Shown: positions 1,329-14,068 of the stretch, piece after piece
Position numbering within the stretch: the stretch's first letter is position 1
How the letters are laid out: every line of letters begins with the position of its first letter
IMG/VR virus record: IMGVR_UViG_3300028188_000023
Coordinates: 1 to 25,396 of that record
DNA from: a virus
Length of the DNA: 25,396 bases
Reading direction: 5' to 3' (one strand)
Translations under genes and position numbers: made by a program
The notes under the pieces: model-generated
What the model was told of the DNA's origin: nothing
The model's database searches: none
Seen by the model: only the letters and a program-made list of their open reading frames with translations

Positions 1329-2630
1329 CTATTCCTCCAGTAGGCTCAGCTGAGCAGCGTCTGTAAGCATTCGGAATGCAACTGCCACCACCAACGGAAC
1401 GACTCCATTTCCACCGAGCCGGAGTTGATCCACCCGGGAGGAAGGCCCATAAGCCACTCCTGAAATCGCGGGTTCAAGGTGCGGCCATCGCTCGAGGATG
1501 TGGAGCCATCTGGCGTAGTCTCCTCTTCCAGGAGGGAAGGGAAGAGGCTGGCCTGGTCCCTCAGTCGGCTCTTGGTCTGCGCCTTCTCCGTGTTGCTGGT
1601 TGCACCGCCGGTTTCCCTCGCAGCGGGCGTTCCCCATCTCCATGCCGCAGAGGGGAGCGTCAGATCGCTCTTGCTGCCCACCTGATGGGCCCCACCCTTG
1701 GCCCCGTCGCTGGCCCGAGCCGCGGCCAGGTCTGTCCCCGCGCAGCGCCGACCAGAGATTGCCCCCGTCGTCCGTCCGGTTCGTTCTGTCCCTGCTTCTC
1801 CTGGTTGGCTGTGGGGGTCGGCCACAGCTTGACGGCATGGTGGAGGCTGAGTTGATGCATGGTGGAGGCTGAGTTGATGCATGGTGCCCCGTTCCGCGGC
1901 ATTCTGGCCGTGCTTCCGGTCTGATTTGCGGAGTTGGCCCTCCATCAGCGCATCGAATGCATTGGGCGTTGGCCAGTTCCCCGCCTGCAAGCTCAGCGAT
2001 GTCCCCCCTTGGGCATATGAGGTGTTCCGTTGATTCCGATCGTCGGCTGTCGGAGTGGTCCAGTTCCCCGCAGCGCCTACCAGGCCATTCCGTTTGTCGT
2101 CCGCCCGTGCGGTGGGCCAGGATGAAGACTCGCTCCCGCCGATGTGGTGCGCCAACATCTCCCGCGCGGAGGAAGAACGGATCTTCGATCTCGTAACCCA
2201 GCTCGCATAGTTTCTCTCCAGCAGGCCGAAACCATCCCCGGGTAACGAAAGTTGAGACGTTCTCGATGAAGACCAAGGGGGGGCACACTTCTCCGACGAC
2301 GCGCACGAACTCGGGCCAGATAGCTCGATCGTCGGCGTTGCCTTTTTGGGTTCCTGCGAGGGAGTAGGGCTGGCAGGGCAGTCCTGCAGCGATGAGATCC
2401 ACCGCTCCACGCCACGGGCGGCCATCGAAGGTCGACAGATCGTCCCAGATAGGCGCTTTATCCAAGGTCTGTTCTTCCATTCTGGCCACGAGAGTGGCCG
2501 CTGCGCAGGCTTCCCGCTCAACGAAACAAACAGTACGGGCGCCGGGGACGGCGAGTCGGATACCGAGGTCGATTCCTCCAACGCCGGCGCAGATGGACAA
2601 TATTCTGGGGGGACATATAGCCACATTCAC
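1329..2630 (-). CDS. dcm: DNA cytosine-5 methyltransferase
   Basis: The 433-residue enzyme would transfer a methyl group from AdoMet to C5 of cytosine in a short DNA site, probably shielding phage DNA from host restriction. Motif I is LSICAGVGGIDLG (11-23); motif IV is GLPCQPYS with catalytic C86; motif VI is FIENV (121-125); motif VIII is APHRRERVF (161-169); motif X is GGNGVVP (406-412). The start is GTG at 2630, overlapping the previous stop (GTGA) after GGAGG; GTG at 2624 is possible. The stretch between motifs VIII and X, which holds target recognition, is odd: repeat-like methyltransferase sequence also appears in the +1 frame, open from ATG 2626 to 1346, and a 22-bp tandem duplication lies within it. 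The main frame is open throughout, but the target-recognition part may be altered. Confidence 0.85.
   Translation of the reverse strand: MNVAICPPRILSICAGVGGIDLGIRLAVPGARTVCFVEREACAAATLVARMEEQTLDKAPIWDDLSTFDGRPWRGAVDLIAAGLPCQPYSLAGTQKGNADDRAIWPEFVRVVGEVCPPLVFIENVSTFVTRGWFRPAGEKLCELGYEIEDPFFLRAGDVGAPHRRERVFILAHRTGGRQTEWPGRRCGELDHSDSRRSESTEHLICPRGDIAELAGGELANAQCIRCADGGPTPQIRPEARPECRGTGHHASTQPPPCINSASTMPSSCGRPPQPTRRSRDRTNRTDDGGNLWSALRGDRPGRGSGQRRGQGWGPSGGQQERSDAPLCGMEMGNARCEGNRRCNQQHGEGADQEPTEGPGQPLPFPPGRGDYARWLHILERWPHLEPAISGVAYGPSSRVDQLRLGGNGVVPLVVAVAFRMLTDAAQLSLLEE
1837..1880. repeat. 22-bp tandem duplication inside the methyltransferase gene
   Basis: Two perfect head-to-tail copies of a 22-bp unit beginning ATGGTGGAGGC occupy 1837-1858 and 1859-1880, followed by the first six bases of a third copy. 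Because 22 is not a multiple of three, the duplication shifts the reading frame by one. Removing one copy on paper joins two otherwise separate frames into a continuous methyltransferase-like reading (HHAVKLWPTPTANQEK). Confidence 0.9.
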
Positions 2631-2959
2631 GCCGCCTCCAGCAGTTTCCGCAGTCCCGGTGCCATCTCGGCCACCAGCTGCAGCGCCGCTTCCTTTACCT
2701 CCCGCTGCCGCATCTCCTCGGCCATCCTCTGCTGCTCCTCTCGCTCTCGTCGCATCTGCTCCATTGCCCGTCTCGTCTCTGCTCCTCCTGCTATGATGGC
2801 CTCTCTCCGCTCTCTGATGGCCGCACAGCGACGACAGAGGGAACGGGGTGCGTCGAAGGACTCCTCGGCGTCGAGGGTGAGAGGACGGCCGCAGAGGGTG
2901 GTCTCGCCGGCAGTCTCGTGATAGGTGCCAGAGGGGGTGAGCTGGACGTAGAGGATCAT
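2627..2959 (-). CDS. Small protein with Cys motif and coiled coil
   Basis: The 110-residue product has an N-terminal part with TLCGRPL (near 21) and SLCRRCAAI (near 40), a Cys arrangement seen in small zinc-binding proteins of actinobacterial and phage origin. A long charged helix follows, rich in Arg, Glu and Gln (residues about 48-90, RREREEQQRMAEEMRQRE), probably a coiled coil. The start codon overlaps the stop of the upstream gene as ATGA, and its own stop overlaps the methyltransferase start. Role unknown; coupling suggests co-expression with the methyltransferase. Confidence 0.65.
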   Translation of the reverse strand: MILYVQLTPSGTYHETAGETTLCGRPLTLDAEESFDAPRSLCRRCAAIRERREAIIAGGAETRRAMEQMRREREEQQRMAEEMRQREVKEAALQLVAEMAPGLRKLLEAA

Positions 2960-12033: not shown

Positions 12034-12533
12034 GCGAGACGACCGAACCCCGCCCCGTCGGACGCCCGACCCGCTACAAGAGGGGGCTGGCCAACGAGAT
12101 CTGCGACCGGATCGCCCTGGGGGAGACCCTGCGGAAGATCTGCGAAGAAGAGGAGATGCCGGATCGCCGGACGGTCTTCCGTTGGCTCGAAAAACATGAT
12201 GAGTTTCGTCACCAATACACGCGCAGTAGAGAGCTGCAGCAGGAGCACTTCGCCGACGAGATCCTCGATATCGCCGACGATGGCCAGAACGACTGGATGG
12301 ATACTAACATCGGCCCAATGGTCGACAAAGAGGCGGTCCTCCGGTCCAAGCTACGCGTAGATACCCGGAAATGGTTGATGGGCAAGGTGGCACCGAAGAA
12401 GTATGGCGACCGGACGGCCGTCGAGCACTCAGGCCCAGGTGGTGGACCGATCGAATACCTGGACCAGCAGCGCCAAGCCGATGCCGAACTGGACGAGTGG
12501 GAGAAGGAAAACGAGCCTGCCGATGAGGAATGA
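12030..12533 (+). CDS. terS: Terminase small subunit
   Basis: The 167-residue protein would recognise the packaging site on phage DNA and hand it to the large subunit. GRPTRYKRGLANEICDRIAL opens an HTH domain (to about 65: RRTVFRWLEKHDEFRHQYTR), then LADEILDIADD-like helices, and RSKLRVDTRKWLMGKVAPKK followed by YGD, the signature end of this TerS group. The start is GTG 12030, overlapping the previous stop (GTGA). Its stop overlaps the large-subunit ATG. Confidence 0.85.
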   Translation: MSETTEPRPVGRPTRYKRGLANEICDRIALGETLRKICEEEEMPDRRTVFRWLEKHDEFRHQYTRSRELQQEHFADEILDIADDGQNDWMDTNIGPMVDKEAVLRSKLRVDTRKWLMGKVAPKKYGDRTAVEHSGPGGGPIEYLDQQRQADAELDEWEKENEPADEE

Positions 12534-14068
12534 AGCGCAAGAAGGAGCTCTCCAAGGAGGCGCGATTCCTGCGGATGTACCGACAAAAGCCATCGATCTG
12601 GCTGCAGCAGAAGATACGGATCGAGCCGGCACGGTACCGCTCGCAGGAGGAGCTGCAGGCGTGGCTCGATCGACAGCCCGCCGACTCGCACAGCTGGGCG
12701 CGGGAACAACTGGGACAGGGACGGCTAAAGCTCGACAGCACCCGGTCCTACCAGACGCAAGCCCTGGACATGATGGCCGTACCGGGCTGGTATGCCTTTC
12801 AGTGGTGCAACGGGGCCGCCAAGACAGCCACCGCGGCACTGTTCGTCCATTGGTTCCTCGACTGCTTTCCCGGGGGGAAGGTGCTGACCACGGCCGGGAC
12901 CTGGTCACAGCTCAAGGAGCAACTGTGGCGCGAGATAGCCAGCTGGGCGACCCGGACAAAGATGCCGATTGCAGCCAACTCAGCACCGCAGGGCATCGGC
13001 AAGACGCAGATCGACATCGCCCCCGACTGGGCAGCGTTCGGTCGAGCAGCCGACCAGGGGGCCACCTTCGAGGGGGTGCACGCCCAGCATGTCCTGGTCC
13101 TGATGGACGAGGCCAAAGCGATCAAGCCGGAGATCTTCGAGTCGGTTCGGCGTATCCTGCGCGGCAATCCCGGCGCTCATTTTTGGTGGGTCTGTCTGTC
13201 CAGCCCTGGTTCGCCCTCGGGGCCGTTCTTCGACATCACCAATGGCGAGCAGGCGCACCGCTGGACCACTTTGCGCATGTCGGCCTACGAGGCTTCCCGA
13301 GTCGATCTGAGCGTAGTAAAGCAGGATGCGGAAGACCTGGGCGAGAGTTCGCCGTTGTTCATCTCGATGGATCTGGGCGAATTCCCAGAAGAGGGCGACG
13401 ACGTCATCATCCCACTTTCTCTGGCGCAGTCGGCTGTAGGGAGGATAGTCAACACCTCTGGTCGTCCAGTCTTAGCGGTCGATGTGGCGCGACTGGGAGG
13501 AGACGAGACGGTCTTTGGGCGGTTCCGCAATCGGGCGTTCGATATGCCGTTGATCTACCAGGGGAAGCGGACGACCGAGACGGCCGGCCATCTGGTGCGG
13601 ATGCGGCACGAATACGGGACGATGGCTATCGACGATGGGGGCGTGGGTGGGGGCGTGGTAGATATGGCACTGGAGGAGAATCTCAACGTGTTGGCTATCA
13701 ACGCCGGCAGCAAGTCCCCGGATCCGCACTACTTCGATCTGGGGACGAACATGGCGTTTGCCGTTCGGCGCGAGTTGGAGCTGGGGCAGGAGAGCCAGGA
13801 TGATCCGGACGTCGGGATCAGCCTGCCGGAGGATAAGCGGCTCCTCCACCAGCTGGCAGCGCGCAAATACGAGGTGCGACGGAACGGCCAATTGAAAGCA
13901 GAGAGCAAGGCAGATATGCGCAAGCGCGGCGAGAAATCCCCCGATCGATCAGACACCCTCAATATGGGTTGGTGGGTGCGTGCGGGTGAAGTCGTTGGGA
14001 GCTCGCTGTCTGCCAATTCGGAAGATCAGCGCACCACCTTCGGCGGTTTACGGGAGCAGGCATTGTGA
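12530..14068 (+). CDS. terL: Terminase large subunit
   Basis: The 512-residue motor would pump DNA into the prohead and cut concatemers. ATPase part: Walker A region QWCNGAAKTA (91-100), Walker B VLVLMDEA (188-195), and a coupling SSPGSPSG segment near 224-231. Nuclease part: LAVDVARLGGDET (315-327) with D318 and D325, AIDDGG near 367-371, and PDRSDTLNMGWW close to the C-terminus, which together give the acidic metal-binding set of the RNase H-like fold. Walker A is unusual in having Ala where Gly normally precedes the Lys. It starts within the TerS stop codon, and its own stop overlaps the portal gene. Confidence 0.88.
   Translation: MKRKKELSKEARFLRMYRQKPSIWLQQKIRIEPARYRSQEELQAWLDRQPADSHSWAREQLGQGRLKLDSTRSYQTQALDMMAVPGWYAFQWCNGAAKTATAALFVHWFLDCFPGGKVLTTAGTWSQLKEQLWREIASWATRTKMPIAANSAPQGIGKTQIDIAPDWAAFGRAADQGATFEGVHAQHVLVLMDEAKAIKPEIFESVRRILRGNPGAHFWWVCLSSPGSPSGPFFDITNGEQAHRWTTLRMSAYEASRVDLSVVKQDAEDLGESSPLFISMDLGEFPEEGDDVIIPLSLAQSAVGRIVNTSGRPVLAVDVARLGGDETVFGRFRNRAFDMPLIYQGKRTTETAGHLVRMRHEYGTMAIDDGGVGGGVVDMALEENLNVLAINAGSKSPDPHYFDLGTNMAFAVRRELELGQESQDDPDVGISLPEDKRLLHQLAARKYEVRRNGQLKAESKADMRKRGEKSPDRSDTLNMGWWVRAGEVVGSSLSANSEDQRTTFGGLREQAL

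Follow-up and report, generated by a model that had tools for sequence, protein, structure and literature searches.

Can one stretch of phage DNA carry two full-length proteins in overlapping frames of the same strand, and do these proteins belong to a single enzyme? The question is raised by a methyltransferase locus in a 25,396-base IMG/VR record of a temperate tailed phage. The whole of this stretch, called the window here, was analysed; its genes include a portal protein, a major head protein, a head protease, a CI-like repressor, a DnaD-like helicase loader and a sigma factor. The first-pass annotation had noted family-like text in two frames of the locus and had offered two readings, either compensating frameshifts in the target-recognition part of one gene or two known methyltransferase types that are frame-shifted versions of each other. 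The simplest account of the sequence goes beyond both: two proteins, both of which would be made, appear to be complementary halves of one enzyme. With a probability of about 0.8, the locus is a two-subunit C5-cytosine DNA methyltransferase encoded by two fully overlapping genes, in frames A and B. Its features are the following.

1329..2630, minus strand: frame A gene, putative catalytic subunit of a C5-cytosine methyltransferase; start at GTG 2630 or GTG 2624, stop ending at 1329
1346..2626, minus strand: frame B gene, +1 to frame A, an ORF of 426 amino acids that contains WPTP modules as well as C5 motif IX, kept in more than 200 loci
2622..2630, minus strand: overlapping start cluster GTGAATGTG, made up of GTG 2630-2628 (A), ATG 2626-2624 (B) and GTG 2624-2622 (A)
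2635..2639, minus strand: Shine-Dalgarno-like GGAGG, with DtoStart (the metric of PMC9841429) of 12 (first GTG), 16 (ATG) and 18 (second GTG)
2627..2959, minus strand: upstream ORF of 110 amino acids, whose TGA (2629-2627) overlaps the frame A and frame B starts
2370..2378, minus strand: frame A motif IV with the catalytic PCQ, kept in 101 relatives
2108..2119, minus strand: frame B recognition-type module 1 (WPTA), from the frame B translation
1964..1975, minus strand: frame B recognition-type module (WPTP, in NWPTPNAFDA); the identical DNA gives LANAQ in frame A
1430..1477, minus strand: frame B motif IX, LNPRFQEWLMGLPPGW; the identical DNA gives LEPAISGVAYGPSSRV in frame A
1395..1412, minus strand: frame A motif X, GNGVVP, with G406 and N407 invariant in 101 relatives

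Frame A has the catalytic features of the family. It is read without interruption along the entire gene (1329-2630) and carries motifs I (CAGVGGIDLG), IV (PCQPYS), VI (ENV), VIII (GAPHRRER) and X (GNGVVP), which confirms the earlier description of a main frame that is open throughout and holds motifs I-VIII and X. It matches PF00145 in Pfam (3e-28, residues 8-177) and PHROG 363 (7e-52), and has the characteristics expected of PF00145, namely motif I, the PCQ of motif IV, the ENV of motif VI, the RxR of motif VIII and the AdoMet fold. In the AlphaFold model (AF2, 101 relatives), residues 1-176 are confident, with pLDDT values of 91-98 for residues 11-170, and the C-terminus, which contains motif X, is also folded with confidence. 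Residues 177-352 have pLDDT values below 50 almost throughout, and a Foldseek search with the model aligns it to M.HhaI and M.HaeIII across only some 173 columns, which cover the catalytic domain and leave out the recognition domain. The long middle of frame A is probably a disordered, weakly constrained linker. In a single-chain enzyme, one polypeptide holds both motif IX and the recognition domain; in frame A the model has no such domain, and motif IX is found in frame B.

Frame B has 426 open codons, from ATG 2626 to a stop ending at 1346, and is co-extensive with frame A. Its text, which includes SSWPTARADD, NWTTPTADD, NWPTPNAFDA and LNPRFQEWLMGLPPGW, had been read correctly at the outset, as had its coordinates, and the double reading of the same DNA, LANAQ-type in A and WPTP-type in +1, is seen at 1964..1975. 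The core columns of motif IX in frame B are identical in 0.87-1.0 of sequence pairs, versus 0.15-0.53 under synonymous shuffles. In Pfam, frame B of the window has no match, and a scan of 104 frame B proteins gave no signal above noise. In PHROG, it matches phrog_1008 (‘DNA methyltransferase’, 3e-15) and phrog_27243 (1e-8), families that are matched by 104 and 103, respectively, of the 104 frame B proteins. Modelled alone, frame B has a mean pLDDT of 55.6 and is confident only at the motif IX helix and the C-terminal helix. A search of solved structures gave only the MS2 coat protein, a weak likeness over 31 residues that is judged to be due to chance. Frame B is most likely the target-recognition part of the enzyme.

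Alternatively, the dual coding could be real and frame B could be something else, such as a regulator, an inhibitor or an anti-restriction protein overprinted on a complete enzyme. The first half of frame B would suit such a protein, since it has conserved residues of its own (L59, P66, W76, S79 and R155 among 57 divergent representatives) and no known fold. This is nevertheless improbable, because A has neither a foldable recognition domain nor motif IX, because B ends in a typical motif IX, and because sister phages have single-chain methyltransferases in which the modules of B are read in frame.

These modules, which point to frame B as the recognition subunit, can be found in either frame. 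The single-chain phage C5 methyltransferases of an actinobacterial type (L217, L319 and L326) have the same motifs and PTPxAxD modules as the window locus but, unlike it, have everything in one frame. Some actinobacterial-type phage enzymes carry WPTP modules in frame A and others carry them in +1, and the likeness of modules across frames reaches 70% identity over 87 amino acids (E 3e-33). That frame A of other phages contains these modules further supports the earlier suggestion of two frame-shifted methyltransferase types, which is right in substance: the WPTP/EWLMGFPxGW text of phrog_1008 and phrog_27243 is the +1 reading of the LADAN/RVDRLRxxGNGVVP family. The number of PTP-type modules varies from 0 to 9 per locus, and modules are shared between loci. 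Four low-GC phage loci (L284, L276, L310 and L267) have strings of PTP modules in +1 (such as PTPTxxHxxNHDEPIDxFxxRxxxSSTGQIGxSxGVALR); these recur in other phages in a different order, suggesting that target-recognition modules are shuffled.

In the actinobacterial type, motif IX sits in frame A, and the stop-free zone of the +1 frame opens at a conserved internal ATG near codon 80. Before this ATG, 99 stops are observed in +1 and 104.7 are expected; after it, the observed and expected numbers are 8 and 50.5 and then 0 and 26. In loci L247-L326 the ATG lies at A codons about 74-85 (GATGAGCGACAC), where A reads DERH and +1 reads MSDT. The single-frame relatives have few +1 stops between codon 84 and motif VIII (2 observed, 13.3 expected, n = 8) and no depletion from motif VIII to motif IX (16 observed, 15.7 expected). 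A catalytic-domain tree places the dual-coded loci on one side and the actinobacterial type on the other, with the single-frame forms scattered within the latter; the well-supported branches require at least three changes. Three loci labelled dual in this tree (L133, L136 and L153) belong by their anatomy to the actinobacterial side. Two of these, L136 (3107-4666) and L153 (3508-4945), have an A chain that ends after motif VIII, with the modules, motif IX and motif X in another frame or past a break; L153, in which B holds all of these, is an M.AquI-like third form. A different C5 methyltransferase family (VYYNEFDP...FAGIGGW) is found in the Enterobacter hormaechei plasmid pTO42E (L328, 2038-3063), where the +1 frame, open from an internal ATG, reads WPTPTASDVKG and LNPALPRWLMGFP; dual coding may extend beyond the present family.

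The two frames also have linked starts. The window has both of the spacings that are conserved in the family, -2 and +4, in the arrangement GTG-A-ATG-TG. Across 190 distinct loci, 41% have a frame B ATG 2 nt before a frame A start and 42% have one 4 nt after such a start, while other offsets account for 0-7% each, except for -5 (19%), which is likewise in frame B. A frame B ATG at -2 or +4 (ATGTG or NTGNATG) is present in 125 of the 190 loci, and paired starts are present in 162 if GTG and TTG at -2 are counted as well. In the NTGNATG form, the A and B starts straddle the optimal Shine-Dalgarno spacing (modes 12 and 16); in the ATGTG form, the spacing has no single sharp value. The upstream ORF has no convincing family match in Pfam or PHROG, and the overlap of its stop with the A and B starts makes translational coupling possible. 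In E. coli, AUGUG and GUGUG sites initiate translation in both frames, in vitro and in vivo, in reporter tests (Kohl et al. 2022, PMC9841429). Those ambiguous sites have the same overlapping start codons as this locus; they represent a general phenomenon of starts, whereas here the site is conserved together with two long conserved products.

A clade of 11 loci with 70-87% identity reveals which codon positions vary. Over codons 0-165, most of the variation is at position 3 of A (0.16-0.30). From codon 165 to about -55, most of it is at position 1 of A, which is position 3 of B (0.25-0.34), and there is little at position 3 of A, which is position 2 of B (0.05-0.10). Amino acid identity in the variable half is 0.87-0.89 for B versus 0.64-0.70 for A, while in the last 25 codons, which contain motif X, it is 0.96 for A versus 0.80 for B. 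In this clade, constraint therefore switches frame, from A over the catalytic half to B over the variable half. The switch is clear only in close clades, since the variable part of distant pairs is unalignable in frame A, and the flanking-gene control for this clade is left out because it is spoiled by false ORFs.

Since B takes over from A as the constrained frame near codon 170, just past motif VIII, the two frames might be joined by programmed +1 ribosomal frameshifting into one fusion, with A through motif VIII followed by the recognition part and motif IX of B. Such a fusion is decidedly improbable. It would lose motif X, which is conserved in A at its very end, and it has no need of a stop-free first half of B or of a conserved start beside that of A. 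In the actinobacterial type, moreover, the stop-free zone opens at the internal ATG and not at the switch point.

In the window alone, the probability of a stop-free +1 frame over 425 codons is 0.0044, with 3.9 stops expected from 20,000 synonymous shuffles of A. Since this is only moderately unlikely, it is the comparative data that decide that frame B is real. Among 67 IMG/VR loci that were selected on frame A alone, with expectations taken from synonymous shuffles of A, +1 stops number 0 against 129.5 expected in codons 3-165 and 3 against 98 in the remainder of the gene (about 228 expected overall), counts that are not independent because the loci are related. The +2 frame of these loci is not depleted (392 observed against 393.7 expected and 496 against 520), nor is the +1 frame of 442 flanking ORFs (5617 against 5564). 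Among the 57 divergent representatives, frame B residues such as L59, P66, S79, R155 and FxEWLMGxP are conserved far beyond what A and its codon use would give, and this excess over synonymous shuffles is present in both halves, with a null that is imperfect in that the +2 frame too has excess column conservation and that the single-frame relatives also have few +1 stops between codon 84 and motif VIII. Stop depletion, codon positions, conservation of B and paired starts all place both frames under protein-level constraint. Selection confined to the main frame, with homologues devoid of the WPTP-type reading, was looked for and is not what these loci have; the double-frame observation is real and stronger than had been supposed.

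The same data bear on the view that frame B is a shadow of frame A, in which a GC-rich methyltransferase leaves +1 open and WPTP and EWLMGFP are simply common codons for LADAN and RVADGLPxRVD read in +1. The window by itself, with P = 0.0044, leaves some room for this. In addition, GTGGCCGACGCCAACAGC reads both VADANS and WPTPT, and frame B therefore owes part of its appearance to A and its codon choice. A shadow is very improbable, however, since the 36 genes with less than 55% GC have 3 stops in +1 against 99 expected and 0 against 73.5, the paired starts are conserved, in one clade the variable part is better conserved in B than in A, the motif IX columns are far above the shuffle null, and the same modules occur in frame A elsewhere.

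Decay or sequencing error, with compensating frameshifts in a formerly single-frame gene as first considered for the recognition part of the window gene, deserves almost no credence and is refuted for the family, because both frames of the window gene are intact and such pairs, with constraint on both frames, are conserved over hundreds of loci in many phyla, even though three loci (L063, 3911-4900; L234; L241) look frame-shifted. In these three, an apparent recent single indel shifts both readings at one point, and these indels may be errors or decay.

The dual-coded arrangement is widespread. Frame A with an open +1 frame is found in Acidovorax phage Alfacinha1, Synechococcus phage JY39, Pseudomonas phage phPA-G and one environmental myovirus; in these four, the +1 frame begins with MWLY or MSWLY and ends in motif IX. 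Stenotrophomonas phage S72 also has both frames, with stops near the start of +1. An IMG/VR search with the window's own peptides gave no close relatives. Among the IMG/VR matches listed (80 by alignment to A and 80 to B), nearly all have B exactly +1 to A, with starts and ends that nearly coincide. Bacterial genomes with the two frames belong to Pseudomonadota, Chloroflexota, Acidobacteriota, Planctomycetota, Bacteroidota, Armatimonadota, Verrucomicrobiota and Bacillota, and Acinetobacter and Leptospira plasmids with 47-49% GC have the same two frames and a third full of stops. Isolates, prophages, plasmids and metagenomes together supply over 200 loci in which both frames are intact, a lower bound from IMG/VR and genome loci for a family that is larger than the sample.

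Dual coding also accounts for the fact that annotators differ between phages in whether they call frame A or frame B. Public records annotate A as a gene in L003, L007, L329 and L330. B is annotated, with A unannotated, in L002 (2001-3134), L004 (2002-3117), L006 (1939-2667) and L331 (1939-2625), as a ‘cytosine-specific methyltransferase’ in the first and a ‘hypothetical protein’ in the other three. Elsewhere in the window, two long plus-strand ORFs (12403-13803 and 12530-14068) overlap in different frames, and only the second has a family match, to phrog_5902; this is probably an ordinary shadow ORF.

In the proposed two-subunit enzyme, subunit A would provide the AdoMet/catalytic domain with motifs I-VIII and the motif X helices, while subunit B, encoded in the +1 frame of that DNA, would provide the WPTPxAxD target-recognition modules and motif IX, which are absent from A. 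The A and B starts would share one ribosome-binding site through interlocking codons (ATGTG and/or NTGNATG), so that both chains could come from one mRNA. The chains would then assemble, as is known for split C5 methyltransferases; those described as functional in trans in PMC3404938 are the natural M.AquI and M.EcoHK31I and the engineered halves of M.HhaI, M.BspRI, M.BsuRI and M.SssI. We infer that A and B are both made in the cell and bind each other, and that the WPTP modules read DNA. The most likely role of the assembled enzyme would be to methylate phage DNA as a defence against host restriction. Since no restriction enzyme is recognised among the window ORFs checked, protection of phage DNA appears to be its likely use.

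A split with motif IX in the second chain is already known, M.EcoHK31I, by its described motif layout, being the precedent. Its smaller chain is reportedly read in another frame inside the gene of the larger chain. Here, too, the second chain is in another frame, B being +1 to A in nearly all loci among the matches listed; unlike in M.EcoHK31I, frame B matches frame A in length and shares its starting place. According to the account in PMC3404938 (citing Lee, Kam and Shaw 1995), M.EcoHK31I (YGGCCR) consists of two polypeptides, the larger with motifs I-VIII and X and the smaller with motif IX, a division matched by A and B of the window. The recognition region is assigned to the larger chain in that account, whereas by constraint it lies in frame B here, and M.EcoHK31I is part of a restriction system, whereas the phage enzymes are apparently orphans. 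M.AquI (CYCGRG) also has two chains, described in PMC3404938 as a large (alpha) chain with motifs I-VIII and a beta chain with the distal variable region and motifs IX and X; the window differs in that motif X is in A. Literature on overlapping methyltransferase genes yielded only passing mentions of M.EcoHK31I. In the phage Rz/Rz1 spanins, a complete gene lies in the +1 frame of its working partner; these unrelated lysis proteins are much shorter than the pair described here.

As far as the literature consulted shows, four features are new: the full-length overlap with a shared start, its spread over phages of many phyla, the placing of recognition modules in frame B, and the shift of these modules from one frame to the other. 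It is likely that these loci represent a large and ancient class of phage methyltransferases, dual-coded from end to end behind one ribosome-binding site, in which modules that move between frames have given rise to dual, split and single-frame forms. To our knowledge, long same-strand double coding has rarely been demonstrated for bacterial viruses, and current gene annotation conceals it. Two whole proteins that overlap for 300-500 codons on the same strand and have been retained in many bacterial phyla provide a strong natural case for tests of how one sequence encodes two proteins, and also for how ribosomes share one start site. The finding gives a likely function to phrog_1008 and phrog_27243, which are currently listed either as unknown or as the methyltransferase. 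Since the recognition modules sit in a frame that is often unannotated, searches for phage methylation specificity should change.
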